From: Halobacteriovoraceae bacterium
GTDB lineage: Bacteria > Bdellovibrionota > Bacteriovoracia > Bacteriovoracales > Bacteriovoracaceae
NCBI GenBank assembly: GCA_002712005.1
Contig: PASP01000009.1
Location: forward strand, 116,638 to 180,637
Reading direction: 5' to 3'
DNA length: 64,000 nucleotides
This document shows positions 1,715 to 18,947 of this stretch, piece after piece; position 1 is the stretch's first letter; every line of letters starts with the position of its first letter. The notes beneath the pieces are model-generated. The model made no database searches and had not been told where the DNA came from. It was given only the letters and a program-made list of their open reading frames with translations. A program made the translations under genes and the position numbers.

Positions 1715-1817
1715 GCTCTCAGTACTGCAAGAGATCGTTTTTTAGAAAATGATTAAGCTATCGAAAATAAAGAGACGAAGTCACGGAGGGATAAAAAATT
1801 GAACCATGATGATCAAT

Positions 1818-1843
1818 TCTTTATCCCCACTCTAATAGGGCAG
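1818..1843 (-). repeat. Right terminal inverted repeat of the IS
   Basis: The reverse complement begins CTGCCCTATTAGAGTGGGGA and pairs with 728-753. It lies two bases from the stop codon (1846-1848) of the neighbouring GH31 gene. Confidence 0.8.
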
Positions 1844-1845
1844 TT

Positions 1846-4128
1846 TTATGGGCATGAAGAAGAGAAGAGGGGCATAACTTCTTTGGCCACAGATTGAAGC
1901 TCTAAGTTTTCTTTCTTGTAGAAAACAGCCGGACATCCAATCGGCGCACCGATTTTAATCCATTTCCCTTGTTCCACGAATATTTCTTTACCTGTAAGAA
2001 AGTGAGTCCAATGTCCTTTTGGAAGATATAGAGTTCTTACTTTTTCCTCATTATGAACAGGGGCCACGAGCATATCTTTTCCAAAGAGAAATTGGTCATC
2101 TAGCTCATAGGTATTGGGATCATCTGGGTAATGGAGAAAGAGGGCGCGTATAATCGGGATGCCCTTTTTCTGAGCCTCTTGATAGAGGGATTTTCGGTAG
2201 GGGAAGAGTTTGGAAAAGACTTGTGACCATTGGGAAAAACGAGTTAAGAGTTCTTCGTCTTCAAGTAGGGAAAGTTTTAAAGTTCCCATTCCTTCTTTTG
2301 TTCTCAAAAGGGCGCCGAAAGTTTCTTTTTCCATCCATCTATGCATGAGCTCTTTTGAGCGTTTGATACCGAAGGCTGAAAATTTTATGGCACCACCCAC
2401 ATCTGAATGATTAATGAGAATTCCACTAAGTCCACTCGTGATTCCCGCAATGGTAGTGGATTTTAAACCATCGTTTTCATCAAAGGTCGTCATTTGATCA
2501 CCTTGCCAATACATTTGATTATACTGCAAAGATTCAGTATGGCCGGAGCGGATAAAGGCCACGGCATCGCCATTCATATGTTGGTTGATGAGTTCTCTAT
2601 TGAATTGTGCCCACTTTGTAATGAACTTATGGCGTATGGCCATTCCGTCTCTTTCTCTTAATACATAATTGGTTTGAAGAGGAAGGGCTTCGCTGAAATC
2701 TGCATTCCAAAATTGGATTCCTGCAGGGATCATATATTTCTTAAGAATATTCATTAACTCTTGATAGGCATCTGGATTGAGTAGATCGACAAAGTAGGCC
2801 TTAATAAAGCCTAGGTCGGCAAAGACTTCGCTATCAAAATTTTTGATGAGGTATGATTTCTCTTTGAGATATTCATACATATTGAGATCGTGATGGCGGG
2901 CATCTTCAGCTTTCAGCTCTCTTGCTAGTGGATTGAGATAGCCTCCAATTCTAATTCCTCTTTCTTTGATAGCGGCAACCATGCTTTCCCAGTGAGGATA
3001 AAGAGTTCTATCCACTTCCCAATTCCACTTTAAGCGGCGAGAACCATCAAAGGTCCTATCGATTCCACTCCAATCTTCGATCCACATGGCCTTAGTGGGA
3101 ATATTATAATCTTCAATTTTTTTGAGAAGCTCGTATACTTTCTCTTCTCCCTCTAAGAAGCCGCCGACAACAACGCCTTCATGAAACCAATCAGGGGTTG
3201 GGTGAGGGAGTCCTGCTGCATGAGAAATTTTCTGTACCATTTTTAAGGGATGATCTTCTCTCATGATTTCGATTTGAAGGGATTCACTCAAACTCCACAA
3301 TCTCAAGGCAGAAGGCTCTCTAAAATCAAAGAGAGAATAGGATGGTCCTCTCAACTTATAAGCATTCCAAAATTCTCTTTTCTGCTTTGTGAAGAAACTG
3401 ACCACTGGAATGTAGCTAGAAAACTGATCTCCACCACTCAAACCTCGTGTTGCTATATCAAAAGGGAGGCTTGTCCAGTAAGAGCCACGGCCATGACCTT
3501 GTTCTTGGGCCATAAAGGGAATGAGACTTCCTTTTAAATTGAGCTTTGTAAATTGTTCACCTCCACCATAAATGGGAGAAGAGGGATTTGACGGGAGATT
3601 GAGTCCAAGCCAGAGGGATTGATTACTCTTCTTTCCTTCTAACCTAATTTTGAGTAGGTCGTCATCGACTTGAAAAGTCGCCGTATAAGGGATGAAGCAG
3701 TCTTTCCCATAGAGGTTTCCTTTCATGGTGATTTTCTCATCTCTTAAAGAGAAGGAATGGATGGTTTGTTCATGACAAGTGTGGCGACCGAGTTTGGCCT
3801 TGAGATAGACAGCACCAAAGCGATTACTCTTTATTTTAGGATTCTTATTTGCCGCGATAAAGAAAGCTTTCTCTTGAGTCTCAAGGACGGGGCCACCTTT
3901 ATAAAAGATGGAAAAACCATCATGGCTTAGTCGAAAGCGATACCCTTTAAGATTAAGGAGAGTTTCTCTCTCTTTTAAGTTTTTTGAAGTGAGATAGAAT
4001 TTGCCAGGCTCTGCGGATGAAAACTTGGTAAGCTCTTTCTTCCATGGAACAAGATTACCATAAGTCGATATTTGGAGAATAAAGAAAAGAGAACAGACCC
4101 AGATATTCTGTGAGATTGATTTTCGCAT
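1846..4128 (-). CDS. Glycoside hydrolase family 31, YihQ-like alpha-glycosidase, exported
   Basis: Predicted retaining alpha-glycosidase of family GH31 with a signal peptide (MRKSISQNIWVCSLFFILQI), so it probably acts in or beyond the periplasm. Starting at 4128 gives a GAGGGG Shine-Dalgarno; a longer start at 4161 has none. The order of blocks follows E. coli YihQ (sulfoquinovosidase): YGGGEQF, WIEDWSGIDRTFDG, RRLKWNW, nucleophile region FWNADFSEALP (Asp about 477), acid/base region MYWQGDQ (Asp about 544, the same 67-residue spacing as in YihQ) and LFGKDMLVAPVHNE. The Arg and Trp that contact the sulfonate in YihQ (recalled as R301/W304) seem kept as R365/W368, but the YihQ Gln is Glu here (E351). 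The substrate is therefore open. The IS right end abuts the stop codon. Confidence 0.9.
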   Translation of the reverse strand: MRKSISQNIWVCSLFFILQISTYGNLVPWKKELTKFSSAEPGKFYLTSKNLKERETLLNLKGYRFRLSHDGFSIFYKGGPVLETQEKAFFIAANKNPKIKSNRFGAVYLKAKLGRHTCHEQTIHSFSLRDEKITMKGNLYGKDCFIPYTATFQVDDDLLKIRLEGKKSNQSLWLGLNLPSNPSSPIYGGGEQFTKLNLKGSLIPFMAQEQGHGRGSYWTSLPFDIATRGLSGGDQFSSYIPVVSFFTKQKREFWNAYKLRGPSYSLFDFREPSALRLWSLSESLQIEIMREDHPLKMVQKISHAAGLPHPTPDWFHEGVVVGGFLEGEEKVYELLKKIEDYNIPTKAMWIEDWSGIDRTFDGSRRLKWNWEVDRTLYPHWESMVAAIKERGIRIGGYLNPLARELKAEDARHHDLNMYEYLKEKSYLIKNFDSEVFADLGFIKAYFVDLLNPDAYQELMNILKKYMIPAGIQFWNADFSEALPLQTNYVLRERDGMAIRHKFITKWAQFNRELINQHMNGDAVAFIRSGHTESLQYNQMYWQGDQMTTFDENDGLKSTTIAGITSGLSGILINHSDVGGAIKFSAFGIKRSKELMHRWMEKETFGALLRTKEGMGTLKLSLLEDEELLTRFSQWSQVFSKLFPYRKSLYQEAQKKGIPIIRALFLHYPDDPNTYELDDQFLFGKDMLVAPVHNEEKVRTLYLPKGHWTHFLTGKEIFVEQGKWIKIGAPIGCPAVFYKKENLELQSVAKEVMPLFSSSCP

Positions 4129-4399: not shown

Positions 4400-5293
4400 A
4401 TGTTTAAGAAGTCGATTGCAGCTCTTTTAACTTTTGCTACTTTTCAAATTCCTGCGCAAGCTATTAATGGAATGCCAAATGCCTGTCATGTTGATCAAGT
4501 GCAAAAGGCGGCATGGGGTTTGAGTCAAACAGGAAGAGAGAGATTTCTCTCGGATGCGACCTTACCTGGAAATCTTTCTGTCTCAGATAATGAAATCTAT
4601 GAACGTCTTTATAGTGATATTAAAAAAACCTATGGAGGTGAGAAAGGAAATTTTGGAGATGCCGATTCCATTGCTCGTAAGATCAAGTGGGCCGCAGAAT
4701 GTACAGGTAACGACTTCACTATGTTGGCGGCCATAATAAAAGGTGAATCTATGTACTGCCATCTTCTTCATAATAAGTCGGGAGGAGATTCCGGTTGTGG
4801 TCAATTTACTTCGGCATCGATTAACTTTTTTAAAAACCAACTCCGTCTACCAGGAAAAATTGAAAATGGTCATCCTAGGATGAAAAGAACGATTGAAGAT
4901 ATTATGAATCGTTGTGCCCCCGGAAGTAGCTATGTAAATGAAGACTCTCTGGCAAATCTCTTTGCTAAGAGTAAAGACCAAATTCGTCAGGAATTAAGAA
5001 CAGGGAAGAATCTTTCCTTAGATATTCTAGCTACCGCCGTCTATTTGAAATTCTATTACTCAATTTCTGGCTTCTATTATAATGCGAATAGTTCAAAACC
5101 TGGAGCACTCTCTCGCTATAATGGAGGTGGAGTCGCAAACTATGGATCAATGGCCTACAATAAAGCCATTAAGATTAGCCATGATATTTGTATGAAGGAT
5201 GAGTCCTATTTAGAGTCGATGCAAGAGACAGCATGCTCTTTAGGAGAGGAAGCCAGTGCTTGTTCGATGAATATTGCGACGATTGAAATTTAA
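4400..5293 (+). CDS. Secreted SLT/lysozyme-fold protein, putative lytic transglycosylase
   Basis: This 297-residue protein has a clear signal peptide ending near AQA (MFKKSIAALLTFATFQIPAQ) and a good AGGAG Shine-Dalgarno. The middle contains a transglycosylase-like arrangement: a candidate catalytic Glu in MLAAIIKGESMYC, followed by GGDSGCGQFTSASINFF (the GxxQ(F/L) turn of SLT domains), and later LSRYNGGGVANYGSMAYN, which resembles the YNxG block where such enzymes bind glycan. It would cleave peptidoglycan in the periplasm or, in a predator, prey wall; the latter is inference. Cysteines near both ends could form disulfides. It is a single gene with no obvious operon partner. Confidence 0.72.
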   Translation: MFKKSIAALLTFATFQIPAQAINGMPNACHVDQVQKAAWGLSQTGRERFLSDATLPGNLSVSDNEIYERLYSDIKKTYGGEKGNFGDADSIARKIKWAAECTGNDFTMLAAIIKGESMYCHLLHNKSGGDSGCGQFTSASINFFKNQLRLPGKIENGHPRMKRTIEDIMNRCAPGSSYVNEDSLANLFAKSKDQIRQELRTGKNLSLDILATAVYLKFYYSISGFYYNANSSKPGALSRYNGGGVANYGSMAYNKAIKISHDICMKDESYLESMQETACSLGEEASACSMNIATIEI

Positions 5294-5615: not shown

Positions 5616-6323
5616 ATGAATCTTTTAGATGCTTTCTTAGCCGGTGGGGTATTTATGTACTTTATCGCAGCTTTCGGATTACTAACTTTAGCTTTTATCG
5701 TTGAGCGTTTTATTGCTCTTTACGTAACTCACAAAACAGCACCTGCTGATTTTCGCAAGAATATTCTTAGCTTTATCTCTCAAGGAGATTTCAAAGCGGC
5801 TCAAGACTATGTTGAAATGAGCGCTGGTAACACAGGTCTAGGTAAAATTACTAATGTTGCTCTTAAAATGAGAACAGTTGGAGCTGGAGATGAAGCTCTT
5901 CAGGCAAGAATGGATGAGCAATTATCTAAAGAGATCTCTTCTGTAGATAGAAGAACAGGATTCTTGGCCATGTTTGGTAACGTTTCTACTCTTTTTGGAC
6001 TACTCGGAACGGTTACGGGTCTTATTAGTTCTTTTGCTGGGGTTGCAGCAGCATCACCAGTAGAAAGAGCGAATCTTCTTTCTCAAGGTATTTCAGAAGC
6101 TCTTAACTCGACAGCATTTGGTCTTGTTGCAGCTATTCCTGCTCTTGTTGCTTTTGCTATTTACCAAAATAAAACGGAGCAAATTATTTCTTCTTTAACT
6201 GAATCGGCAAGTGAACTCTATCATGACTTTCTTTTCTATACGGAAAGTCACAAAGAAGACGCTCAAGCTGCTACTGCAATGGCCACGGATAAGAAAGGCG
6301 AGCAGACAGTTACAAGAAACTAA
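5616..6323 (+). CDS. TolQ/ExbB/MotA-family proton channel of gliding motor (AglR-like)
   Basis: This 235-residue inner-membrane protein belongs to the MotA/TolQ/ExbB family, whose members conduct protons with a TolR/ExbD partner to power envelope work. Three hydrophobic segments are visible: near the N-terminus (FMYFIAAFGLLTLAFIVERF), in the middle (GFLAMFGNVSTLFGLLGTVTG) and towards the C-terminus (AFGLVAAIPALVAFAIY). The middle GNVxTLFGLLGTVxGLI block is the family signature. The charged cytoplasmic segment between the first two is as expected. Two ExbD/TolR genes follow immediately, the same one-plus-two arrangement as Myxococcus aglRQS. The strong Shine-Dalgarno suggests high expression. 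The gliding role is inferred from the whole cluster; ordinary Tol or TonB energising is the alternative. Confidence 0.9.
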   Translation: MNLLDAFLAGGVFMYFIAAFGLLTLAFIVERFIALYVTHKTAPADFRKNILSFISQGDFKAAQDYVEMSAGNTGLGKITNVALKMRTVGAGDEALQARMDEQLSKEISSVDRRTGFLAMFGNVSTLFGLLGTVTGLISSFAGVAAASPVERANLLSQGISEALNSTAFGLVAAIPALVAFAIYQNKTEQIISSLTESASELYHDFLFYTESHKEDAQAATAMATDKKGEQTVTRN

Positions 6324-6355
6324 TTACTATATCATTTTAAGGAAGGGATTCCATT

Positions 6356-6838
6356 ATGAGACATAAAACAGGATTAGGAACAAAGAAGGAGCTTGACGCT
6401 CAATTGAACCTTACTCCCTTTATCGATCTTCTTTCAACTTGTGTGTGCTTCTTATTGATCACCGCTGTATGGATTGAGATCGGTACTGTTGAAGTCAAGC
6501 AAAGCCACGGCACTGAAGCTGCTGCTGAGAAGAAGGATTCTTTTGATCTTGATCTCGTTTTTCAGTCTCCGACTCAATTGAGACTTAATCTCAAGAAAAA
6601 TGGAAAACGTGTCCAAAAAATTGATGTAAAAGGTGAGGACTTTAACGGAATGTTGGCCAGTTTACAGACTAATATTGCTACTAAAGTCCTCAATTTCAAA
6701 AATAAGCCAATAGAGATTGCGACGGCCACAGTTACGCCACGTAGTACTGTTGATTATGGAAATCTAATATCAACGATGGATGTTTTGAGAAAGAATCAAA
6801 TCATCAATATTGGTATTTTAACGGCGAGAGGTAACTAA
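6356..6838 (+). CDS. ExbD/TolR-family motor subunit (AglQ/AglS-like), first copy
   Basis: This 160-residue protein has a single N-terminal membrane span preceded by LNLTPFIDLLSTCVCFLL. The Asp of TPFIDLL (D24) is the conserved proton-carrying residue of the ExbD/TolR family. The remaining periplasmic domain, of about 110 residues, ends with VDYGNLISTMDVLRKNQIINIGI, which resembles the TolR C-terminal fold. It follows the TolQ-like gene by 32 bases, and its last base is the first base of the next gene's start codon (taATG), so translation is coupled. It would form the proton path with the upstream channel. Confidence 0.9.
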   Translation: MRHKTGLGTKKELDAQLNLTPFIDLLSTCVCFLLITAVWIEIGTVEVKQSHGTEAAAEKKDSFDLDLVFQSPTQLRLNLKKNGKRVQKIDVKGEDFNGMLASLQTNIATKVLNFKNKPIEIATATVTPRSTVDYGNLISTMDVLRKNQIINIGILTARGN

Positions 6839-7353
6839 TGATTTTAAACCAAAGTATGGTGGCCGCTGACGCCTTTGAAAAACACCTTATTAATAGAAAG
6901 AGAAAGAAGAATTGGGCCGTTAAGGCAGCTGGCTTTACGTTGATGCTTACTTCAATGGTTGACATGTTCAGTATGCTTGTTGTTTTTCTCTTGCAAACCT
7001 TTTCAAGCTCTCCTGAAATCCTCGTGACAAAAGGTGTAGAGCTACCCAACTCGATTACACCTTCTCAGGTTAAAGAAGCTCCTGTTATCGCCTTATCTCG
7101 CGATGGAAATCTCTATCTTGATCAGAAGCTAGTAGGAGAAACAAAGGTTGTAAGTAAGAAGCCAGATATGCTCCTTAAGAAGTTAAATATTATTAAAAAG
7201 GAATGGGCATCTTCTCATACGACACCTTTTACGGGTGAAATTAATTTACAAGCTGACAAAGAAATTAAATCGACAACTGTGGCGTTGGTCATGGGGATTT
7301 TAACGAGTAGTCAGTTTCAGTCTATTGAACTCGCTGTTGTAGGCCAGCGCTAA
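6838..7353 (+). CDS. ExbD/TolR-family motor subunit (AglS-like), second copy
   Basis: This 171-residue protein is of the same family as its upstream neighbour but clearly divergent. A basic N-terminus (RKRKKNWAVK) precedes the membrane span LMLTSMVDMFSMLVVFLLQ, whose Asp (D42) is the likely proton acceptor. The periplasmic part contains VELPNS, ALSRDGNLYLDQKLV and a C-terminal SIELAVVGQR, all typical of ExbD. Having two distinct ExbD proteins beside one TolQ-like channel is characteristic of the AglRQS gliding motor. The start codon overlaps the previous stop by one base. Confidence 0.9.
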   Translation: MILNQSMVAADAFEKHLINRKRKKNWAVKAAGFTLMLTSMVDMFSMLVVFLLQTFSSSPEILVTKGVELPNSITPSQVKEAPVIALSRDGNLYLDQKLVGETKVVSKKPDMLLKKLNIIKKEWASSHTTPFTGEINLQADKEIKSTTVALVMGILTSSQFQSIELAVVGQR

Positions 7354-7425
7354 TAAAGCCTACACTTTGACTCCATGAGGGAGTCTTGAAATGAAAATAT
7401 CAATTGCGGCAAGGATGTCTAGGTT

Positions 7426-10380
7426 ATGAAACCGGAAACATTAAAATTAATTCTTACGATCTTAATTTTAGGAGCAACTTCTCTAATGAGTGGTCGCTCT
7501 TTTGCAAACGATACCGCCTATTTAATCCAAGAAATGGAAAGTTTAAGAGATTCTCTAGAACTTGATGATCCTGCTCGTATCGACCTTACGCTCAGATTAG
7601 CGGATCTCTATTTTGATGCCTCGATTAAAGAAGGGGATACTGAAGGTGATCCAAAAGTTCTCCGTCAGCAACGTATGAAGGCCCTAGACCTCTATCGTCA
7701 CTCTTTAAATGGAACCGATGGAGTTGAAAGAGTGGAAGGCCTAGACCGACTAAAGATTCAATTCCAAATGGCGCGACTTTTAAGTCGTTTAGGTGAGTAT
7801 GAGGAAGCTGAGGGACATTATAAAGATGTGGAAGCTCATAAACTTACACCTAAGAAAATGAGAGAACAGGCCAGTCTTGCTCTTGCTGAGTGGTACGAAG
7901 AAGATGCCCAGTATCCAAAAGCTGTTAAATTCTATGATAAAGCTCTGGCCCTATGTGAGGCCAAGGCCAGTTGTAATTACGCTCACTATCGTAAGGGATG
8001 GCTCTACTTTAAAGATACGAAGCTAGATAACGCTATTGCTGAAATGAAGGCTTCCCTTTGGGTTATAGATCCAACAGAGAAGAGTGAGGGAGAAATTCGT
8101 GAGTCTTCCTTACAGGATTTAATTCTCTTTATGTCCAATGCGGATACTAATGGTGAGAAAGAATTAGAGTATATGAGAAATCTTTCCGCTCAAATTCATC
8201 GCCCTGAATTGGTGAGAAAATTAGTGGAAGCCTTCTATGTTGCGGGTAACCGTCGAGCTGGTTCTCATATCTTAGCTTATATTAATGAAGAAAAACCTAA
8301 TCTCTACTACGAAGTTAGGCTTTTGGAAGAATTCTACGGTTTTAGAAATTGGGATAAAGTTGAAAAGTATCTCGCTGATCTTAAGAAGAGAAGTTCATCT
8401 GACTTACCTAGTAAGAAAGAAGAAAAAGAAGAAGTTAATAAAATCTTACGCCGTTATCTCGTACAGGTGGATTCAGAAGCTGAAGTTATTCCTGAGCTGA
8501 ATACTTTCTTAAAGAATTCGATTGATATCTATCTAAGTATTTATCCCAATGATGACCTTCGTAAAAAGATGCAACAAGGTTGGTTGAAAGCTGAGTCTGA
8601 TGAGAAATTAAAAGTGGCCCGTCTAGGTGAATGGATTAAAGAAGATCTGGCCTTGGGGATCAAGCCTGAAGAAATCAGAAAATTGCGTCAGACTCGTCTA
8701 TCGATGGCCCAGAAATTAAAAAATTCTGATGTTGTGATCGAAGAATCCCTGGCCATTGCCGATATATTAAAAAATACTTCAGAAGCTGATGAGTTTACTT
8801 ATGTTGCGGCTAGAGAGTTCTATGCAAAAAAGGAATACGATAAGGCCTTACCTCTATTTAAGAGTTTAGTGGACGGTGCCGTTACGAAGAAGAAAATCAG
8901 TAATTGGTCACTTCTCTCACAGAACTTATTACTTGATATCTATAATCATAAGAAAGACTTCGATAAAATTATTGCCCAAGTGGCCCTATGGAAAACTGCT
9001 GTCGCTAGTGCAGATATGACAGAAGTCGATAAGAATAAAAAGCTGAAAAAAGAGTTAGCTGCTGATACTGCGCAAATGGATAAGATTCAAATTGAAGCTC
9101 GATTCGAAAAAGCGGCAAAATTACAGGATTCTCCAGAGTCTCTTCAAGCTTTTTACGATTTCTGCTTTCAGGGAGTATTTCCCGATAAGTCTTGTCCCAA
9201 TGCTAAAGTTCTCTCTGTAAAGTTTGCAGATCAGGCGAAATTAATCTCGCTTCTTGAAAAGGAAGGGGATGAGCAAGCTCTTATGAATGAGTATGAGTTA
9301 ATGGGACGTTTTGCTGATGCCGCTAAATTACAGGAGAAGCTTGTCTTAAAAAAAGAGGGCAAGAAAGCTTCTCATGAACTCTATTTAAAAATTGCCCTTC
9401 TCTATGAATTAGATGAAGAGTTTTCTCAAAGAAATCGTATCCTTGGTCAACTTGTGCAAAAGATTAAAAGAGAGAAGTCGATTCCTGAAAATCTAGAGGG
9501 GGCCATCTTTTTGACCCTAGATGAAGCGGGGATGATTAATTCAAAATCTCTTTTTATTCCATGGTCTATGAAGAGAAAACTTTCTTTGGCCAATCGTCTT
9601 GAAATGGAGAAGCCTGGGAAGACCACTCAAAAACTCATTATGTCACAACAGGAGTCTCAGGGTCCTATCTGGTCTCAACTTCTATTAAAAGGAGTTGAGA
9701 AGAAATTTGCTCGCGTAAATAAGATTAAGTTCTATGGGAGAAGTTCAAAGTGGCTATTTAAGAAGAGAACCAAGGCCATCGAGAGATTTGTATCTACAGT
9801 TAAGCCAAAGCTTGAAGGAGCAGATCTTGAAACACGAATTTATCTCCTTCATATGATGACTCGTGTTTATGGAAAAATGACTGAGGATATTTTAGCGACT
9901 CCTCTTCCTCCAGACCTTGATGATGAAACTTTAGCTCAAGTTCAAATCCAGCTACAAACCATGTCCGAGCCCTTTGAAAAAGTAAGAAGTGATTATCAAA
10001 GACTTTTAGATGAACAAATGGCTTCCTTTAATGCTGAAGATGAGACTGAAATTGATATGAAGCAAAGAATTGCCAAGAATATTGATGAAATCACGGGTCA
10101 CAATTATTCAGAATTTATTGAACTTAAGCCGGTTCAAAAGGCAACAGTTATTGCTTCGCAATTTGAAGGTGAAAATCTTGATCAATGGAAGAATACTTTG
10201 AGTCGTGAGCCTAATAATTTAGCTGCTCTTAAGTCTTTACAGGTGTATTTCAAGGATCAAGGTATGTTGCGACTTTCAGCTTACTACTCGGGAAGAGTGG
10301 AGAGTATAGAACCTATTCAAAAACAGACTGAAGTTAAAGATAAAACTGTGGATCAACAAGATGCAGAGGAGGCCATATGA
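7426..10380 (+). CDS. Large exported TPR-repeat protein of gliding cluster
   Basis: This 984-residue protein has an N-terminal hydrophobic signal (LKLILTILILGATSLMSGRSFA) and helical repeats that look like TPRs, for example RLLSRLGEYEEAEGHYKDVE, ALAEWYEEDAQYPKAVKFYDKA, FYAKKEYDKALPLFKSLV and LMGRFADAAKLQEKLV. TPR arrays are protein-protein scaffolds. In the Myxococcus Glt complex GltE and GltC play such roles, and by position this is the GltE/AglT-like candidate. The length is well above the usual Myxococcus TPR members, so equivalence is loose. The stop overlaps the next gene's start by four bases (ATGA). It is probably periplasmic, linking the proton motor to outer-membrane parts. Confidence 0.75.
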   Translation: MKPETLKLILTILILGATSLMSGRSFANDTAYLIQEMESLRDSLELDDPARIDLTLRLADLYFDASIKEGDTEGDPKVLRQQRMKALDLYRHSLNGTDGVERVEGLDRLKIQFQMARLLSRLGEYEEAEGHYKDVEAHKLTPKKMREQASLALAEWYEEDAQYPKAVKFYDKALALCEAKASCNYAHYRKGWLYFKDTKLDNAIAEMKASLWVIDPTEKSEGEIRESSLQDLILFMSNADTNGEKELEYMRNLSAQIHRPELVRKLVEAFYVAGNRRAGSHILAYINEEKPNLYYEVRLLEEFYGFRNWDKVEKYLADLKKRSSSDLPSKKEEKEEVNKILRRYLVQVDSEAEVIPELNTFLKNSIDIYLSIYPNDDLRKKMQQGWLKAESDEKLKVARLGEWIKEDLALGIKPEEIRKLRQTRLSMAQKLKNSDVVIEESLAIADILKNTSEADEFTYVAAREFYAKKEYDKALPLFKSLVDGAVTKKKISNWSLLSQNLLLDIYNHKKDFDKIIAQVALWKTAVASADMTEVDKNKKLKKELAADTAQMDKIQIEARFEKAAKLQDSPESLQAFYDFCFQGVFPDKSCPNAKVLSVKFADQAKLISLLEKEGDEQALMNEYELMGRFADAAKLQEKLVLKKEGKKASHELYLKIALLYELDEEFSQRNRILGQLVQKIKREKSIPENLEGAIFLTLDEAGMINSKSLFIPWSMKRKLSLANRLEMEKPGKTTQKLIMSQQESQGPIWSQLLLKGVEKKFARVNKIKFYGRSSKWLFKKRTKAIERFVSTVKPKLEGADLETRIYLLHMMTRVYGKMTEDILATPLPPDLDDETLAQVQIQLQTMSEPFEKVRSDYQRLLDEQMASFNAEDETEIDMKQRIAKNIDEITGHNYSEFIELKPVQKATVIASQFEGENLDQWKNTLSREPNNLAALKSLQVYFKDQGMLRLSAYYSGRVESIEPIQKQTEVKDKTVDQQDAEEAI

Positions 10381-10667
10381 AAAGGATAAATCTCGTTAAA
10401 ATGATTCTTCTTCTATTTATGGTTTGTGCCACCACTACAAATAGTTTGGCCCAAAGTGCAACGGAAACCTTAATGAAAGGTAAGAATGTACGTTATAAAT
10501 CTCAAGGAAGAGTTGATTTCGAATCCCTACTTATTGAAGGGGAGAGGAAGAAACCTGAAATGTCCGTAGTGACAGGTAATATCGGGGAGAAAGACTCTGG
10601 ACTCTTAAAGTTTAGAAAAGACTTTTTAGATGTAATGGCAGACGATTTCGGGGAGAAAATACAATGA
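10377..10667 (+). CDS. Small exported protein of the gliding cluster, unknown function
   Basis: This 96-residue protein has a signal peptide (VKMILLLFMVCATTTNSLAQ) and a short hydrophilic mature part containing VRYKSQGRVDFESLLIEGERK. It overlaps the gene before by ATGA and the gene after by four bases, so it is almost certainly co-translated with the TPR and AgmX-like proteins. I do not recognise a family. The tight coupling suggests that it is a structural or assembly partner of the trans-envelope complex. Confidence 0.7.
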   Translation: MKRINLVKMILLLFMVCATTTNSLAQSATETLMKGKNVRYKSQGRVDFESLLIEGERKKPEMSVVTGNIGEKDSGLLKFRKDFLDVMADDFGEKIQ

Positions 10668-11872
10668 TTGCAGTAGAAACTGAATCTGGTGAATTAGTAA
10701 AAATCTTAAAGAATGTTGCCGATGGTGAATTCGGATTACACTCTAATTTTGGACTTATTGCTACAAAAAGAGCAAAAGAAAGAGTTGAGACACGTAAAAG
10801 ACAAGGTTTCGACTACACAAAAGATGAGTGGCATTGCTCTTTTAAGCTTGCAGAGGCGGAAGGGAGCTTTAATATTCTTGGGACTCAAAATTGTGATGCT
10901 CTTCAAACTTCAGAAGGATGGCTTCTTGAAACCCCTCTTGGAAAGTTTAAATTGGTAAAAGGGGGAGCTGATTATGTCAGCACACTCCTAGAAGACCATG
11001 AAGATGAAGCGAGTTGGTTGAATCGAGCTCTGGAGCTTATGATTCTCCTTACTTTTATTCTCTTACCTGTTCTTTACTATCTTCAAGAGAAACCTGTTGA
11101 AGAAGAAGAGGTGAAGAAAGAAGAAATCGTTGAGCCTATCACCGTAAAGATTGTAAAACAGCCTGAGAGAGTGGTTAATATCTCTAAGCCTGTAAATCCA
11201 AATATCAAAGTAAAGCCTCTGACAAAGGCCGAGCGTTCTAAGAGAGCGGTTAAGAGAAATCTAGGCTTTCTTGGAATGGTGGGTTCTAAAGATATGAAGA
11301 AAGTTGTCGGTGGTGTTCCTCAAGAGTTGAAAAAGGCCACTGCTGGCGCAGGTGCTGGTGGTGATGCTGGCTCAGGTGGAGAGGTTCTTACTGGGTTAGG
11401 TAAAGGTCTTAAGAAAACGACTGTTGGTAATACGGGTGTGAAAGGACTTGGCGGTATTGGTACCAAAGGTGCTGGTGGTGGAAAAGGTGGATATGGAAAT
11501 ACCATGGTTGCCTCAGGTAGTGGTAAGGGAATCTCTGCTATTGCCGTTTCCAATTCTGATGTTACGCTTGAAGGGGGGATTTCTCGATATGCCATTAATG
11601 CAACCATCGCAAAGTATCTCAATCAAGTTCGTCGTTGTTATGAAACTCAGTTGAAGACAAAACCAAATATTCAAGGTCTTGTTGAGATGAGTTTTGAGAT
11701 CAACTCTGGTGGTCGCTTAAATTTTGCCAATGTTCGAAGAACGACATTGAAAGATAAGCCGACTGAACAATGTATTCAAAGTAAAATGATGACCTGGCAA
11801 TTTCCTAAACCAAAGGGAGGAGTCAAGGTTCCTGTTAAATACCCATTTATGTTAAGACCGGTAGGTTCATAA
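10664..11872 (+). CDS. AgmX/PglI-like TonB-type energy transducer of gliding cluster
   Basis: This 402-residue protein has a cytoplasmic N-terminal region (about 1-120), one membrane span (ELMILLTFILLPVLYYL), an acidic/Lys/Pro stretch, a long Gly-rich linker (about residues 225-300, rich in GAGG and GKG) and a C-terminal AgmX/TonB-like domain. The C-terminal domain contains ISRYAINATIAKYLNQVRRC, CYETQLKTKP, GLVEMSFEINSGG and a closing WQFPKPKGG. This C-terminal family is typical of Myxococcus AgmX/GltJ and GltG, which span the periplasm and reach the outer-membrane part of the gliding complex. Unlike AgmX, no zinc finger or GYF domain is apparent in the N-terminal part, and no clear FHA fold is recognised. 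It overlaps both neighbours and so belongs to the same operon. Confidence 0.85.
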   Translation: MIAVETESGELVKILKNVADGEFGLHSNFGLIATKRAKERVETRKRQGFDYTKDEWHCSFKLAEAEGSFNILGTQNCDALQTSEGWLLETPLGKFKLVKGGADYVSTLLEDHEDEASWLNRALELMILLTFILLPVLYYLQEKPVEEEEVKKEEIVEPITVKIVKQPERVVNISKPVNPNIKVKPLTKAERSKRAVKRNLGFLGMVGSKDMKKVVGGVPQELKKATAGAGAGGDAGSGGEVLTGLGKGLKKTTVGNTGVKGLGGIGTKGAGGGKGGYGNTMVASGSGKGISAIAVSNSDVTLEGGISRYAINATIAKYLNQVRRCYETQLKTKPNIQGLVEMSFEINSGGRLNFANVRRTTLKDKPTEQCIQSKMMTWQFPKPKGGVKVPVKYPFMLRPVGS

Positions 11873-13503
11873 TGAAATTAAGAAAAACGAATAAACTTTT
11901 ATTATCCTTTCTCCTTGCTTCTAGCTTTCTCATGGGCTGTGATGAAAATCCTTACCCTGCTGGTGATGGAGTGATTGTAGAAACTCCAACTCTAGAAGAA
12001 GAGCCTCTTCCTGAACTTTCCCTCGCGGTTGACGATGTTATTGAATTTCGTGAAGGGCGTAGAGGAACTTATCTGATTATAGGAGCTGTAGCAGAGCCAG
12101 GTGAGCCTATTATATCTGTAGAAGACCTCCCTGCAGGCGCTACTTTTGATGAGAAAGAAAATCTAATCAAATGGATTCCTGATCACTTTGCGGGTAACGA
12201 TCCCAATGATCCTGGAATTAAAAGTCGTATTTATCCCATAATGGTAGAGCTGAGAAGTTCGGAAGATGAATTCCGTGCTGTAAGAAAGCAAGTGAATCTT
12301 CTGGTTCACGATGTTCCTCAATTGATTAAAATTAATACCGCCAGAAATGGTTCTATTGACGAAGGGAAGAAGTTTTCAAGCTCATTCACCATTGAAAACT
12401 CTGATTATCCAGATGGTCCATTTAAAGTTCTCTTAAAGGACATGCCGGCCAATATCGAATTAATTGCAGATGAAGATGATCCTACAAAATTCACTATGGA
12501 ATTTACTCCGGACTTCTTTCATGTCAATCGTGAAACAGATGGTCAGAAAGTTAAGTATGTAGGAACGATCTTTGTTTCTAACCCTGCAAATCATATCGAA
12601 GAGAAGCAATTTGAAATCACGGTAAATGATATTAGACTTGATTCTAAGCTTGTTGCTCCAAGTGAATTAGTTCAAGGACTCGATGTTTCGATTCAAGTTG
12701 CTGGTTATGATCTTAATAAAGAAGTAACCCCAAAGATTGAGCTCTTAGGTGGTCGAGCTGATCGTCCTCAATTTGGTACTTTTGATTTTGAAGTGATTAA
12801 GAATCCAGAGAATTATTCAAGTGTTCTCAATGTGACTTGGAAAGACATTCCACCTTCGCAAAATGGAAAGACTCATACCTTAAAGTTTAAGTCTTGTGTT
12901 CTTTCTTTCAATGGCTCTTATAATAACTGCTCTTATGCAGAGACCGAAGTTAAGTTTGTTGTTCGAGATAGAAAAGCTCCACTTATTTCTCGTTCCTCAT
13001 GGCCAGTAGATGAACTTGTCTATATTGGCTTTAATGAGAAGTTATCTAAGAATATTCGTGTGACTGATAGGGAAGACTCTAAACTTTCACCTAAAGTAGA
13101 GATTTTTCCTGAAGAGATGAGACAGTATGTTGAATGGGATAATGGATTTCTTACGGCACGTTTTGATAAAGCAGGAGTCTATCAGTTTAATCTAAAGGCC
13201 ACTTCTGACTATAATGTTTCCTCAACCGAGAGTTTTATATTAGAAGTATTCCCAGAAGAACGTTACAAGAATTTAATCTTTGCTGATTCAACCCGTGATC
13301 CAGAAGTTATCTTTTACAAAGAAAGATTTAAGGATATGCAGATGATGAATCCGGCCATCCAGCAAATCAATCCTCGTAATATCTCAGGCCGAGATATGCT
13401 TATCATCACTTCCAGTACTCTGCTTGATAAGTCTATCCAAGACAAGGTGATGGCAGCGATCGATAAAATCGATCATGTTGTTGTGGCTTCTCCGCTTATT
13501 TAG
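11872..13503 (+). CDS. Lipoprotein with Ig/cadherin-like repeats, interrupted by an in-frame amber codon
   Basis: This lipoprotein has a type II signal peptide ending LMGC (Cys23). Asp at +2 is an inner-membrane retention signal in E. coli, but that rule may not hold here. The mature part looks like tandem beta-sandwich modules with repeated phrases of the putative-Ig type: EEPLPELSLAVDD, DLPAGATFDEKENLIKWIPD and a similar DMPANIELIADEDDPTKFTM block. Such modules form extended periplasmic or surface stalks. Codon 544 is TAG (13501-13503), yet the same frame continues open for another 140 codons (13504-13923) with gene-like sequence. The full-length product would be about 683 residues. The first base overlaps the AgmX-like stop. 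As part of the gliding cluster it may be a periplasmic connector. Confidence 0.85.
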   Translation: MKLRKTNKLLLSFLLASSFLMGCDENPYPAGDGVIVETPTLEEEPLPELSLAVDDVIEFREGRRGTYLIIGAVAEPGEPIISVEDLPAGATFDEKENLIKWIPDHFAGNDPNDPGIKSRIYPIMVELRSSEDEFRAVRKQVNLLVHDVPQLIKINTARNGSIDEGKKFSSSFTIENSDYPDGPFKVLLKDMPANIELIADEDDPTKFTMEFTPDFFHVNRETDGQKVKYVGTIFVSNPANHIEEKQFEITVNDIRLDSKLVAPSELVQGLDVSIQVAGYDLNKEVTPKIELLGGRADRPQFGTFDFEVIKNPENYSSVLNVTWKDIPPSQNGKTHTLKFKSCVLSFNGSYNNCSYAETEVKFVVRDRKAPLISRSSWPVDELVYIGFNEKLSKNIRVTDREDSKLSPKVEIFPEEMRQYVEWDNGFLTARFDKAGVYQFNLKATSDYNVSSTESFILEVFPEERYKNLIFADSTRDPEVIFYKERFKDMQMMNPAIQQINPRNISGRDMLIITSSTLLDKSIQDKVMAAIDKIDHVVVASPLI

Positions 13504-13923
13504 AATTTTCCGCCGAAGTTCTACGATCGACTGGTGAATAAGTATGATATGTCTCCAATTGGTAGACTTTCTCAAATTCCCAATGCTCCTAAATTAGAAG
13601 ATGCTAAATTTCATTTTACTCAGCACTTTGACGTTCCCACTAATGAAATTGGACTCTTGGGAAAATCTTCATCTGCTTCAACAGACCCTATGATCTTCAA
13701 CGGGGGTCTTTATGATACAGAGAAAAATTGTAAAGGTGTTTTAGGTGTATCTGAAACTGATATTAACCCCTTTATCATTGGGTTGAGTTGTAAGAGAACA
13801 GAGCGCCTCGGTGGTGGTAGGATCTCTATCTTAGGTACTGAGTGGTCTGATTTAAAAACCAGTGAAGATGATAAACAGATTCCAGTTAAGTGGTTTGATA
13901 CCCTCTTAAACGAAGAGTTCTAA
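13504..13923 (+). pseudogene. In-frame C-terminal remainder of the lipoprotein after the amber stop
   Basis: These 139 sense codons continue in exactly the same frame as the gene at 11872, with natural composition and normal TAA termination at 13923. The junction reads ASPLI-stop-NFPPKFYDRLVNKYD, which looks like uninterrupted protein. The next gene follows after 19 bases, so operon spacing is normal. A GTG at 13534 is the first possible restart but has no Shine-Dalgarno, so independent translation is unlikely. It could be a recent nonsense mutation, a base-call error or stop-codon readthrough. TAG ends several other genes here (53585, 55109 and 57144), so code reassignment is not supported. 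Confidence 0.7.
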
Positions 13924-13942
13924 TAAGAGTTAAGGATAAATT

Positions 13943-14659
13943 ATGAATGTTTTAAAGAACGCAAAGAAATATTTAATGGTGATGGCCCTTGTTTCTACTT
14001 CTTCGTATGCTGCTGAAAGTGGAGAGGTCTCAAAACTAGAAAATAAACTCGATGCCCTCAATATTCCCGATGATAAGGTAACGCCTCTTTTGAGCCAGGA
14101 TCAGCTCTATATTGTGAACACTCGTTATTCGAGTTTAATCAATCGTCATGAAGTTACTTTAAAAGGGGGGCATAACTTTACTGCTGATAGCCACCTTGAT
14201 TCAAAGGATATTGCTCTCTCTTATCGTTATCACCTCAATAGTGATTGGTCATTTGGTGTACGTTATACCGAGTATCAGAATGATCTAACAGGTGCTGGAG
14301 AGAGACTCTTTGATGATCAGAAGCTTCTTCCCGACACTGATTATTCTGTAAATGCTAAAGAAATTTTTGCTACTTATAATACGATTTATGGAAAACTTCG
14401 TTGGTCTCAAGAAACGGTAGTTTATTTTGATCAATATATTTCTCTTGGAGTAGGGGAAATGGAGTTGGCCTCCGGTAAGACCAATCATGCTCTCGCCGAT
14501 TTAGGCTTGGCCTTTTGGATTGGTAAACACATGAGTGCACGTGTAGGGCTTAAGAATGAGTTCTATAATCAAACTCAGTTAACAGGCAAAGAATTTAAGG
14601 CCAATACTTTTGGCTATATTGAATTTGGTTACCTCTTTGGCTCTGGGGACAGAGGTTAA
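13943..14659 (+). CDS. Outer-membrane beta-barrel protein of gliding cluster (GltA/GltB-like)
   Basis: This 238-residue protein has a signal peptide (KYLMVMALVSTSSYAAE) and then alternating amphipathic strands: EVTLKGGHNFTADSHLD, IALSYRYHLNSDWSFGVRYT, LRWSQETVVYFDQYISLGV, MSARVGLKNEFYNQTQL and a terminal GYIEFGYLFG. This is the pattern of the outer-membrane barrel domain found in delta-proteobacterial and Bdellovibrio Glt-type clusters. A Leu-rich helix precedes the barrel (SKLENKLDALNIP). It would anchor the periplasmic Glt components at the outer membrane. The intergenic distance of 19 bases supports co-transcription. Confidence 0.8.
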   Translation: MNVLKNAKKYLMVMALVSTSSYAAESGEVSKLENKLDALNIPDDKVTPLLSQDQLYIVNTRYSSLINRHEVTLKGGHNFTADSHLDSKDIALSYRYHLNSDWSFGVRYTEYQNDLTGAGERLFDDQKLLPDTDYSVNAKEIFATYNTIYGKLRWSQETVVYFDQYISLGVGEMELASGKTNHALADLGLAFWIGKHMSARVGLKNEFYNQTQLTGKEFKANTFGYIEFGYLFGSGDRG

Positions 14660-14669
14660 TTGACACAAA

Positions 14670-16286
14670 ATGGGATCGGTCACGATGTTCAAAAGTAATT
14701 TATATAAAAAATGGAAATTGAATAAGCTCGCTAGCATAACTTGTGTAGCCGCTATGGTGTTCGCGACAAGTTCTTCACTTATGGCCTCTGAAGCCCAAGG
14801 CACAGGTGCCTTTAGTCAAATGGAAGGAGCTGATATCGATTTCTCGAAGCAGCTCACTCAAGCAAGGGCCCTTAAATTAGATGATCCTTTTCTCATTCAG
14901 CTCTATAGTCGTTGGAAGGCCTTAGGAGCGCTTGAGCCACAGACCAATGAGTGGTTCAACCTGATCTTTTCGGGAGAAAATGAAAAGGCCTTTGAGAGAA
15001 TTCATCTCTCTTCGATCAATGCGGATCGTAAAATTTCTGCTCTTACAAAGCCAGTAGAACTCTATTTACTCTATAAATTGGGATACTTTCAAACTTTCTT
15101 CGATGAATGGGCAAGCTATTCAGTGGAAAGTGGTTTTGCTCGTACGGAGCTTGGTTTGGCCTTGGATCATGTGGTATCGCCCCAGAGTTCTTTGATCTTA
15201 GTCAATCAAGGCTTCTTTGTTGATGCCAAATTGAAAGCCAATCTGAATTTACTTAAGAATATTGAGGGAAATATTAATTACTCTCTCCAAGGATTTAATG
15301 CTCTTCGCTCTGGAGATCAGTCTGTTTCTTGGATCGGTAAACTTAGAGATAATGATGAGCTTCGCTTACATTTGGCCCATACCGCCTTACTCGATTATGG
15401 TCGTCAAGGGCAGCTTGGAGCTTCTGGTAAATTAATTTCTAAGGTGGTTGAACCTTGGATTGAAAAGTCTGAAAAGCCAGAAGAAATCTCTCTGTATTAT
15501 ATGACTCTTGGTCGCTTACTTTATCAGGCCGGTGCTTATAAGCAAGCTGAGCATTTCTATTACTTAGTTCCTCAATCCTCTAAATATTTCTTAGAGGCGA
15601 GAACGGAAGCTCTTTGGGTTCAACTTCAAGAAAGAGATTTTCCAACGGCAAAGGGGCAGTTAGAAAGTTTAAAGATGAATGTTTTTACTGATCAATTCTA
15701 TCCTGAGGTCTTCCTTGCTCAGGCCATTGGTAACACTATGATGTGCCAATTCATTGAAGCTAGGCGTTCGATTCAGTCCTTCATTAACGTTAATAAGAAC
15801 TGGGCTAAGAAGATTGAACAGGCCGTAACGATGGATAATCCTCCTATGATTAAAGAGAATTTCTATGTTAGGGGAATTCGTGGTCGTGAAGATGCCCTAA
15901 AAAGAGAGGCTAAAGTCTTCTCTGAACAAGGTATTACGGCCTATGAAACTCGCCATGGTGAAATTCTTTCTGAGGCCAAAAGACAGTTAAGGGCCGAAGC
16001 TAAGAAGCAATGGGGTAATCGAAAAGAAATCTTAGATGCTGCTATTTATAAGATGGGATTTGTAAGAATTGAGCTTCTCAGTAGAATGAGAGCCGTTTCT
16101 CAAGGAATCAAAGATAGCTTTACTGCTGATAAGGTAAGTGTCTTTCAAGCGGCACCTGCTCGAGAGTCAAAGAATGAAATGAACTTTCCCAATGATGGAA
16201 TGCTTTGGGGGGATGAGCTTTTTAGAATGAGTGCAGAAGTTCATAATATGTGTATTCAAGGTAAATTTTATGAAAAGAAGAAATAA
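14670..16286 (+). CDS. Exported helical-repeat protein of gliding cluster (GltC-like)
   Basis: This protein of about 538 residues starts at 14670, or at the second ATG at 14685, and has a signal peptide (LASITCVAAMVFATSSSLMA). It contains alpha-helical repeats resembling TPRs, for example YYMTLGRLLYQAGAYKQAEH, EALWVQLQERDFPTAKGQLE and QFIEARRSIQSFINVNK. Late segments are basic and helical (SEAKRQLRAEAKKQW). By order in the cluster (barrel protein, then periplasmic repeat protein) it resembles Myxococcus GltC, but sequence identity cannot be judged by eye. Its 3' end overlaps the next gene's start by 17 bases. Confidence 0.7.
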   Translation: MGSVTMFKSNLYKKWKLNKLASITCVAAMVFATSSSLMASEAQGTGAFSQMEGADIDFSKQLTQARALKLDDPFLIQLYSRWKALGALEPQTNEWFNLIFSGENEKAFERIHLSSINADRKISALTKPVELYLLYKLGYFQTFFDEWASYSVESGFARTELGLALDHVVSPQSSLILVNQGFFVDAKLKANLNLLKNIEGNINYSLQGFNALRSGDQSVSWIGKLRDNDELRLHLAHTALLDYGRQGQLGASGKLISKVVEPWIEKSEKPEEISLYYMTLGRLLYQAGAYKQAEHFYYLVPQSSKYFLEARTEALWVQLQERDFPTAKGQLESLKMNVFTDQFYPEVFLAQAIGNTMMCQFIEARRSIQSFINVNKNWAKKIEQAVTMDNPPMIKENFYVRGIRGREDALKREAKVFSEQGITAYETRHGEILSEAKRQLRAEAKKQWGNRKEILDAAIYKMGFVRIELLSRMRAVSQGIKDSFTADKVSVFQAAPARESKNEMNFPNDGMLWGDELFRMSAEVHNMCIQGKFYEKKK

Positions 16287-17376
16287 GTATTTTTGGCTAT
16301 TTTCTCTCGTCTTTCTCCTAGGATGTGAAAGTACGTTTAAAAATGGTGAAGAATATGTTCACTATGAAACTCTTCCGCCGGAAGAGCAAGATAATCGTGT
16401 TTATCCCTTAAGTCTTTTACAACTGGATAAGAAAATCGATGTGATTCTGACGATTGATAACTCAGGAAGTATGTCTCCTATTCAGCAAAGTGTGATCGAT
16501 AACGCTAGGCTCTTCTTCAATGAGTTTGCCAAAGCTTCTTATGTGGATTGGAAAATCGGTCTTATTTCAACTGACTGGGAAGAGGATCCTTATCTTGGCT
16601 TTGATCGCTCTTTTGATTCTTCTCTTGTTACACCTAATGATCCTACTTCATTTGATCAAGTGGTTTCTGAATTTCAATACGCAGTAGGGCAGTTAGGTAT
16701 TAGTGGTTCTGCAACAGAGACAACTTTCTTACCCGTTCATTTAAAGCTTGAAGAGTATAAAGGTTCTCATGCTTCACGCCCTTCTTTCTTAAGGGATAAT
16801 GCCCACCTCGTTGTCATTAGTATCACGGATGAAGCCGAGCAATCTATGTCTTTAAGTACATGGGGAGCAAAACCTCCGGGCTACAATCGTAATCTCTATG
16901 AAGCGACTTCTTTCTATAACTTTCTTTCTACCTATATTAACTCTAATAAGATCCTTCGCTTCTACGGTGGGATCCAAAATAGAGAATTTGCAGGTTGTGA
17001 TAGAGATGGTGGATTTGGTGGAGTCAAGTGGGATGATACTGAGTATGCCAAGATCATTAAGATCTCCAATGGCTTCTATGTGCCTGCCTGTTCAAGTCGA
17101 TTTGGATCAGATCTCGCTCGTATTGCAGAAGATATAACTTCCTTAATTGGTAGACCTTCTCTTCTTTTAAGAAGAAGACCTAAGGTGGAAACTCTAAAAG
17201 TATACTATAAAGGTAGACTTCTAAAGCCTGGTCGCGAAGCTGAAGGTGGATTTTGGTACTATGATGAATCTTCTAATACGATTAATTTCTACGGATTAGA
17301 ATTTGTCGATGATATCGAAGCGGATACTTTTGAAATTGATTTCGAAGTAGATGATGGGATTATTCGTCAGTATTAA
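16270..17376 (+). CDS. VWA-domain lipoprotein, CglB-like adhesin candidate
   Basis: Lipoprotein of about 368 residues: MKRRNKYFWLFSLVFLLGC with lipidated Cys19. The start at 16270 is chosen because it gives a clean signal peptide and an AAGG upstream. A von Willebrand A domain follows with an intact MIDAS motif DNSGS (63-67) in VDVILTIDNSGSMSPIQQSV, a strand-helix pattern (WKIGLISTDWEED) and VVISITDEAEQ. Myxococcus CglB is a VWA lipoprotein adhesin that couples the Agl-Glt complex to the substratum, and this is the last gene of an Agl-Glt-like cluster. The C-terminus (RPKVETLKVYYKGRLLKPG, then beta-rich) may form a separate sandwich domain. Metal-dependent surface adhesion is inferred. Confidence 0.85.
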   Translation: MKRRNKYFWLFSLVFLLGCESTFKNGEEYVHYETLPPEEQDNRVYPLSLLQLDKKIDVILTIDNSGSMSPIQQSVIDNARLFFNEFAKASYVDWKIGLISTDWEEDPYLGFDRSFDSSLVTPNDPTSFDQVVSEFQYAVGQLGISGSATETTFLPVHLKLEEYKGSHASRPSFLRDNAHLVVISITDEAEQSMSLSTWGAKPPGYNRNLYEATSFYNFLSTYINSNKILRFYGGIQNREFAGCDRDGGFGGVKWDDTEYAKIIKISNGFYVPACSSRFGSDLARIAEDITSLIGRPSLLLRRRPKVETLKVYYKGRLLKPGREAEGGFWYYDESSNTINFYGLEFVDDIEADTFEIDFEVDDGIIRQY

Positions 17377-17431
17377 TCTTCCTTAGAAGTTTGATTTAAT
17401 TTAATTACTAAACCAATATTTATTTATGTCG

Positions 17432-17477
17432 AAACGTCCTTAAAATAGTGAAGTCATTATTCTAAGGACGTTTTTTT
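17432..17477 (+). terminator. Terminator of gliding cluster that also contains the next gene's Shine-Dalgarno
   Basis: AAACGTCCTTA (17432-17442) pairs perfectly with TAAGGACGTTT (17463-17473), and T7 ends at 17477, directly before the next ATG (17478). It would end the cluster transcript. The right arm holds AAGGA, the only ribosome-binding sequence for the downstream gene, so in read-through RNA that site would be hidden in the stem. Confidence 0.85.
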
Positions 17478-18947
17478 ATGGGAATTCTTAAGAAGGCCAA
17501 GAGTCTCTTATCGGCAGATATCTATAACGATACAAAAGCTTCTGACTATATGTATGGGAGAAAAGGCCCTTGGCCCCAGCCTTGTCCTGTTCATCCCTTT
17601 GGTGAGTCGCCAGCAGTTATTCACGTTCCTTGGTCGGAATGGGCCGATTGGTGGCTTCATATTGGTTCTCGTTATCTCCTTAGCTTAGGTTATACTCCAG
17701 TTGCCTTTTTAAAAGGCCTGTTAAGGCCTGGATTAGAAAAGGTGAGTGATCAAGAGTTCACTGAGTTCTTTGAACGCTCTATGATGTCAAAATTTATCAC
17801 CTCTAAAATTGATGAAGAGGATAAGATTAATTTCGGAAGTTATTGGGAGCAATGGAAAGATAAGTCAAAACTTTATATTGTCGATCTTTCTTGTATTTCT
17901 GTAGTGAAAACTTTTGAAGGCATCTATGCGAGTGCTACCAAAGTATTATTGAATGAAGTTTCACCCTATAAGTATGAAGTCTTGGGAATCTATGTAAAGG
18001 AATCACAAGAAGTCTTTATTCCTTCTGATCAAGGAGCATGGGAATTGGCCAAGTACTATGTGCTGCAAGGGGCTGCTATTGCGGCCACATTGGTGATTCA
18101 TCCGGTTCTTCATTTTCCTTTTGATAGTATTAATGCCATTACTAAGACGGCGCTACCTAAGGAGCATATCTTATTTAAACTGATCTATCCTCATTTAAGA
18201 TTTACTCTTCCCCTTGAAAATGCAGTTCTTAATTTTAAGTCTTCTTTATTGATGAGTAAGGCATGGATGAGCTATGCACCTTATCCTTGGGGTTCAGAGG
18301 GATTGAGGGATCTCTTAGTGGAAGGTTATCGCGGTATAAGAGGAAATGATTCCTATCCGGCGTTTCAATATCCTCTGACTCCGCATAAAGTTCATTCTCA
18401 CTATGGGGATTGGCAAGATCGCTACTACAAAGCTTTCTATTTATTTGTGAGCGATATACTTAAAGATGTAGAAAAGGGAGATATTTTTATTTGGAGATGG
18501 GCCAATTATATTTCTGCCCATGTACCAGGTTTTCCAAATGGGGATGAAATCTTTAAAGAAGATCGCCTGATCAAGGCGGTGGCCATGTATCTGTGGAATG
18601 TCTCCGTTGCTCATTCTGTAGATCACTACAATTATGGAAATATGGATATTCGAAAAGTTCCTCTGAGAATTCGTCAGGCTCCACCCCATAAAGGAGTTGA
18701 TTTAATGGATAGAAAGAAGCTCACAAAATTTTGGGACTATGGAAAATATGAGATGGCCCGTATTCTTTTCTTCAGGGCCAATGAGGTGACGTGCTTAATA
18801 GATTGTCAGTATGACTTTCAAGAAGAGCATCTACAAAGTCGAGTGGCCCAATTTAAAAGTCATCTTCATCAAATTGACATAGAGACAAAAGAAGAGGGAA
18901 TTCAATTTATCCCCCTGAGTAAAATTGCAGCGAGTATTCAATACTAA
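17478..18947 (+). CDS. Divergent lipoxygenase-family protein
   Basis: This 489-residue protein has no signal peptide. Its C-terminal half follows the lipoxygenase (LOX) catalytic domain: AWELAKYYVLQGAAIAATLV leads to a His pair (H208-PVL-H212), then HILFKLIYPHLRFTL, which closely matches the LOX HP(I/L)xKLLxPHxRxT block. A second pair H379-SVD-H383 is followed by a PLRIRQAPP stretch like the LOX (R/L)RxxPP. The first pair has three spacers, as in fungal Mn-LOX, rather than the usual four. His at the fourth ligand resembles mammalian 15-LOX. The C-terminus (SKIAASIQY) offers Ile487 as a possible terminal ligand. It would be about 100-200 residues shorter than typical LOX and lacks a PLAT domain. 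It would dioxygenate polyunsaturated fatty acids; the activity is unproven. Confidence 0.72.
   Translation: MGILKKAKSLLSADIYNDTKASDYMYGRKGPWPQPCPVHPFGESPAVIHVPWSEWADWWLHIGSRYLLSLGYTPVAFLKGLLRPGLEKVSDQEFTEFFERSMMSKFITSKIDEEDKINFGSYWEQWKDKSKLYIVDLSCISVVKTFEGIYASATKVLLNEVSPYKYEVLGIYVKESQEVFIPSDQGAWELAKYYVLQGAAIAATLVIHPVLHFPFDSINAITKTALPKEHILFKLIYPHLRFTLPLENAVLNFKSSLLMSKAWMSYAPYPWGSEGLRDLLVEGYRGIRGNDSYPAFQYPLTPHKVHSHYGDWQDRYYKAFYLFVSDILKDVEKGDIFIWRWANYISAHVPGFPNGDEIFKEDRLIKAVAMYLWNVSVAHSVDHYNYGNMDIRKVPLRIRQAPPHKGVDLMDRKKLTKFWDYGKYEMARILFFRANEVTCLIDCQYDFQEEHLQSRVAQFKSHLHQIDIETKEEGIQFIPLSKIAASIQY

Follow-up and report, generated by a model that had tools for sequence, protein, structure and literature searches.

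A ten-gene Agl-Glt-type operon with a VWA/MIDAS lipoprotein in a Halobacteriovoraceae bacterium and its relation to Bd2368-Bd2377 of Bdellovibrio bacteriovorus

Introduction

The locus described here raises the question of which kind of machine is encoded by a single operon of a predatory-type Halobacteriovoraceae bacterium in which a TolQR-type motor, Glt-type envelope proteins and a putative surface adhesin are combined. Bdellovibrio bacteriovorus glides (PMC3169522), and a 2026 review names the motor, the adhesins and the force path of Bdellovibrio gliding as a major open challenge (PMC13104615). Four Agl-Glt loci of B. bacteriovorus have been published, namely Bd0412-0420, Bd0828-0838, Bd1473-1483 and Bd2368-2377 (PMC2797640). 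Bd1483 appeared as a 'putative protein in gliding motility cluster' in a 2008 study (PMC2277423), and in 2024 it was described as a MIDAS adhesin (PMC11003981). That there are four sets, that motor and Glt genes form compact loci and that one of the sets includes Bd1483 is already in the literature. A statement that a MIDAS lipoprotein is a co-inherited part of the non-canonical clusters throughout the phylum and is missing from the canonical one was not found in the literature searched.

Materials and methods

The window analysed was a stretch of 64,000 nt (contig PASP01000009.1, positions 116,638 to 180,637 of the forward strand), and positions given without further label refer to it. Homology to Myxococcus proteins was judged through NCBIfam models. 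The AgmX/PglI tail was found by search in 90 of 94 genomes of the phylum, and 40 stretches from this search were annotated with profiles seeded from the window cluster and its two paralogues. One genome (G059) was taken to be that of strain HD100; its four Agl-Glt clusters sit at the expected positions of the published loci. HD100 locus tags were assigned by position and gene count, an assignment consistent with the signal peptides flagged in published data for Bd2369, Bd2370, Bd2373 and Bd2374.

Results

The open reading frames and their translations place ten co-directional genes on the + strand between positions 5616 and 17376, with neighbouring genes overlapping or separated by at most 72 nt. 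Eleven ORFs correspond to these ten genes, because ORFs 11872-13503 and 13534-13923 belong to a single gene. The genes that flank the cluster on either side (4400-5293 and 17478-18947) are not conserved next to it in relatives, which fixes the borders of the operon. The product of the latter gene, 489 aa long, is weakly matched by the lipoxygenase profile PF00305 (E 0.0034). Scans for promoters and terminators gave no more hits than shuffled sequences.

A preliminary description had proposed, from the sequence alone, a trans-envelope machine of the Agl-Glt type that includes a VWA (MIDAS) lipoprotein; Pfam and NCBIfam matches recovered it, with all listed parts present. The first gene (5616-6323) encodes an AglR-like proton channel subunit of the TolQ/ExbB/MotA type with 235 aa and three hydrophobic segments (PF01618, MotA_ExbB, 2.3e-26, over cut-off), whose core residues are invariant in an alignment of 36 cluster AglRs. 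It is followed by two TolR/ExbD proteins, an AglQ-like one of 160 aa (6356-6838; PF02472, 7.9e-14, over cut-off) with one transmembrane segment (22-40) containing an Asp, and an AglS-like one of 171 aa (6838-7353; PF02472, 1.5e-13, over cut-off), in which the transmembrane Asp42 is invariant in 36 of 36 cluster homologues. The gene at 7426-10380 encodes a GltD-like TPR protein of 984 aa with a signal peptide-like N terminus (TPR_7, 3.7e-9), and its slot is shared with other cluster types.

The small gene at 10377-10667, for which a role as new component had been suggested, turned out to encode CglF, a secreted protein of 96 aa also named GltF in Myxococcus (PMC4488436). Its residues 11-90 match positions 7-84 of the 88 positions of NF033764 (7.2e-8; 32 bits against an equivalog cut-off of 90), it could be aligned with 12 homologues, and its slot between GltD/E and GltG is the same as elsewhere. 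The next gene (10664-11872) encodes a GltG-like TonB-type transducer of 402 aa with one transmembrane segment (122-140) and a C-terminal AgmX/PglI domain. Only its residues 165-401 match the GltG model NF033760, at profile positions 412-649 (2.6e-38; 132 bits, under the equivalog cut-off), and the tail matches the AgmX/PglI model NF033768 with 98 bits at a cut-off of 40 (2.4e-28). No FHA domain was found on this GltG by profile search. The outer-membrane beta-barrel in the GltA/GltB slot (13943-14659, 238 aa) matches TIGR04565 (OMP_myx_plus, 7.9e-19, 68 bits, cut-off 60). The GltC-like protein (14670-16286, 538 aa) occupies the slot of GltC in other clusters, and its match to NF033756 (8.2e-9) is weak, with 35 bits versus 188 for the HD100 Bd0828-type GltC and far below the equivalog cut-off.

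The seventh gene of the operon (11872-13923) encodes a lipoprotein of about 670-700 aa in relatives, for which a tandem array of Ig/cadherin-like domains followed by an alpha/beta domain at the C terminus is predicted. In the window it is split by an in-frame TAG at 13501-13503, while six of six relatives carry one open gene; among carriers of the long form, a stop was present only in the window and in one further genome (G127, TAA). The 129-aa ORF 13534-13923 was ruled out as a separate gene by the single open gene of the relatives. A homologue from a relative (L011) was modelled with a mean pLDDT of 79.9 and gave cadherin-like matches (E 2e-17), the packing of its domains being of low confidence (pTM 0.42). 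It might be argued that the stop marks a decaying cluster that has lost its function in this genome, the more so as the gene is open in nearly all relatives and the cluster is patchily present in the family. This is very unlikely: all other genes are intact, and the break lies after the Ig domains, inside the C-terminal domain of a protein whose HD100 version is shorter anyway (386 aa). Moreover, the 129 residues past the stop are still similar to those of relatives (48-58% in the closer ones), so that the stop is either recent or a sequence error.

The last gene encodes a VWA/MIDAS lipoprotein that is likely a surface adhesin (16270-17376). The ATG at 16270 is a more likely start than the GTG at 16231 and yields a predicted lipoprotein signal, MKRRNKYFWLFSLVFLLGC, with the lipobox LLGC. 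The MIDAS motif D-N-S-G-S is located at residues 76-80 of the 381-aa ORF counted from GTG 16231. In the predicted model (mean pLDDT 79.7) the VWA domain folds like an integrin I domain (Z 15.4 over 193 residues, rmsd 3.2). Lipobox, DxSxS motif and, in the predicted model, VWA fold are thus all present, and a lipobox-like cysteine together with DxSxS was found in nearly all cluster VWAs, a few being divergent. NF052240, the model for MIDAS adhesins of Bdellovibrio, is matched weakly (6.9e-6; 25 bits, cut-off 700), and so is CglD. The CglB-like nature assigned to this protein earlier did not hold at the sequence level: the CglB model NF033757, run without a CglB-bearing control genome, matched neither the VWA protein at an E threshold of 0.1 nor the genome at one of 0.01. 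Judged by these profiles, the window VWA appears nearer to the Bdellovibrio MIDAS adhesins and CglD than to CglB. Searching the PDB by sequence with the VWA of the window and with two from HD100 yielded no usable result; for Bd1483 the structure is an AlphaFold model only.

The comparison with the AglRQS-Glt machinery and CglB of M. xanthus revealed a common set of TolQR-type motor, GltG tail, CglF/GltF, barrel, GltC- and GltD-like proteins and VWA lipoprotein, which is spread over several loci in Myxococcus and contained in one operon in the window. The window cluster differs in lacking the FHA domain on GltG, a GltE and the second barrel (one barrel in place of GltA and GltB). The core complex of Luciano et al. 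is represented by AglR with AglQ/AglS, the transducer with its AgmX/PglI tail and the weak GltC homologue, and the TPR protein occupies the GltD slot; a separate GltE was not found within the cluster. The profile check proposed beforehand (AglR/Q/S, GltA-K, CglB) was thus positive for AglR/Q/S, GltG, CglF, the barrel and, weakly, GltC, and negative for CglB and for GltH, GltI and GltK, whose models matched no gene of the window cluster; GltJ was matched through the shared tail only.

Two further Agl-Glt clusters with FHA-GltG, GltE-like proteins and a better match to the Myxococcus GltC model were found in the same genome. One of them (L024, G000:C18:60000-79500) is a second VWA-linked cluster, with a VWA lipoprotein of 439 aa that contains a Gly/Asp-rich repeat stretch. 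The other (L023, G000:C12:52000-70000) is without a VWA gene; its AglR/Q/S genes are located on the opposite strand, and AglQ is apparently split into two short ORFs. Additionally, a stray protein of about 135 aa with an AgmX/PglI tail is encoded outside of any cluster (L025, G000:C9:321312-321575).

These data bear on the reading of the operon as the organism's main motor for surface gliding, an equivalent of Myxococcus AglRQS-Glt in which the VWA protein replaces CglB. It would be in line with the AglRQS, CglF, GltG-tail, barrel and GltC homologues in a single operon, with the resemblance of the VWA to CglD and MIDAS adhesins, and with the gliding of B. bacteriovorus, which carries the same cluster (PMC3169522). 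However, the Bd0828-0838 type is the most Myxococcus-like (FHA-GltG with 234 bits, GltC with 188 bits) and was the best gliding candidate according to Luciano et al., the window cluster belongs to a separate clade, the two other clusters of the genome are the ones with FHA-GltG, GltE-like proteins and better GltC, and the CglB model was unmatched. A role as main gliding motor is consequently considered unlikely.

The closest counterpart was found in the HD100 cluster Bd2368-Bd2377 (L040, 2.27 Mb), which has the same ten genes with the same order and roles, the window reading as Bd2377 to Bd2368. Both share the VWA lipoprotein (Bd2368 by position and gene count), the additional lipoprotein, one barrel and a GltG without FHA. 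The lipoproteins differ in length, 386 aa in HD100 versus about 670 aa in the window type, and are alignable in the N-terminal part only. In four Bacteriovoracales loci (L009-L012) the set of ten genes is complete and identically ordered; two more (L013, L014), cut by contig ends, contain the remaining genes. As the order is kept in every complete relative locus of the window type, the arrangement is not due to chance. The expected conservation of gene order in Bdellovibrionota, including a glider, was thereby confirmed.

The linkage of motor and adhesin, on the other hand, is not the peculiarity it had been taken for: it is common in the phylum, Bd1483 already lies in such a cluster, and three of the four Agl-Glt clusters of HD100 have a VWA gene, Bd0828-0838 being the one without. 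Both Bd1473-Bd1483 and Bd0412-Bd0420 resemble the window in their linked VWA/MIDAS lipoprotein. The former type belongs to a more distant clade and differs by its VWA gene in first position and one 206-aa gene between it and aglR; in the latter, GltC is shorter and the lipoprotein is a different one. The MIDAS adhesin Bd0875 (Tyson et al. 2024, PMC11003981) shares the lipobox and the MIDAS VWA domain with the window protein but is located outside the four published clusters.

In a tree of motor proteins and GltG, the Bd2368 and Bd0412 types form a group with the window clade (99% SH-aLRT), the window clade being sister to both together rather than nested within the Bd2368 type. The VWA tree mirrors the machine tree, with the window VWAs in one group (100) and those of the Bd2368 and Bd0412 types in another (97). 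A VWA gene was found in 18 of the 19 clusters of this joint clade, the exception lying at a contig end, and in none of eight Bd0828-type clusters, which have two barrels each and a GltG of 650-740 aa; these counts come from related clusters and are not independent events, and one event may account for the absence in the Bd0828 type. A search with relaxed settings, together with a scan for the motif, did not turn up an overlooked VWA in the Bd0828-type clusters. In some type II loci (L052, L061) the VWA gene is missing within the stretch covered, and in another genome (L068, G086) two VWA lipoprotein genes (1770-3257 and 16414-17886) lie on either side of one Agl-Glt cluster. In the window genome the VWA family has just two strong members, and both lie in Agl-Glt clusters. 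Since these two sit in the clusters, the two trees agree and presence and absence follow the cluster type, the VWA protein is most simply regarded as a core component that the non-canonical Agl-Glt machines inherit vertically, and not as a chance neighbour. The window cluster type itself is missing from many sampled genomes of the family and is therefore dispensable.

Discussion

The machine encoded by the operon is probably a paralogue of the Agl-Glt kind and, in the Bacteriovoracales, the counterpart of Bd2368-Bd2377; its motor would move or load a metal-dependent VWA adhesin, most likely at a specific predatory stage. From the gene content we infer the following force path. AglR, AglQ and AglS would be the inner-membrane stator, powered by protons, and the TonB-like transducer GltG would relay force over the periplasm to GltD, CglF and GltC, which may join to the outer-membrane barrel. 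The barrel would present or drag the lipid-anchored MIDAS adhesin and the cadherin-like lipoprotein at the surface, and by moving or loading the adhesin the cell could slide over prey or other surfaces or hold on to them, for example at exit or contact.

This reading draws on the family matches, the gene order shared with Bd2377-Bd2368, the matching trees, the invariant AglS Asp and the I-domain fold. Moreover, in the exit phase nine of the ten Bd2368-2377 proteins, Bd2368 included, increase at least 4-fold (PMC12546842). In the other HD100 clusters, the Bd0411-0421 proteins peak at 45-60 min (PMC12546842), and attachment requires the AglS protein Bd0838 (PMC6561027). Against it stand the normal predation on E. 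coli after deletion of bd1483 (PMC11003981), the missing FHA domain, second barrel and GltE, the weak GltC, the patchy presence of the type and the interrupted lipoprotein gene. No published deletion phenotype for any Bd2368-type cluster was found in the literature.

Alternatively, the operon could encode an Nfs-like machine. Such a paralogous Glt system would act on a surface polymer in place of an adhesin, moving or depositing it, and the VWA and Ig proteins would bind the polymer. A Glt-related machine of Myxococcus serves sporulation, and duplicated sets have gained new functions (PMC3169522). Insertions in Bd1481 and Bd1483 reduce predation on biofilms (PMC2277423) and three Agl-Glt clusters are up in axenic growth (PMC2797640), both of which would fit a matrix role too. 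Nevertheless, there is neither a polysaccharide gene among the cluster genes nor a conserved neighbour, and a conserved integrin-like MIDAS lipoprotein suits adhesion better, which makes a polymer machine quite unlikely.

A putative stage-specific adhesin motor of a VWA-bearing class is the best reading of the window cluster. As a wider and doubtful possibility, the VWA-bearing clusters of Bdellovibrionota might constitute a distinct class in which a proton motor loads a MIDAS adhesin, with paralogues for entry, life inside prey and exit, and with the VWA-free Bd0828 type serving general gliding. The steady co-inheritance of the VWA protein with the motor is worth testing. The conserved pairing of motor cluster and MIDAS lipoprotein names Bd2368, Bd1483 and the HD100 gene at L037:5616-6887 as candidates and predicts which adhesin may be assigned to which motor.
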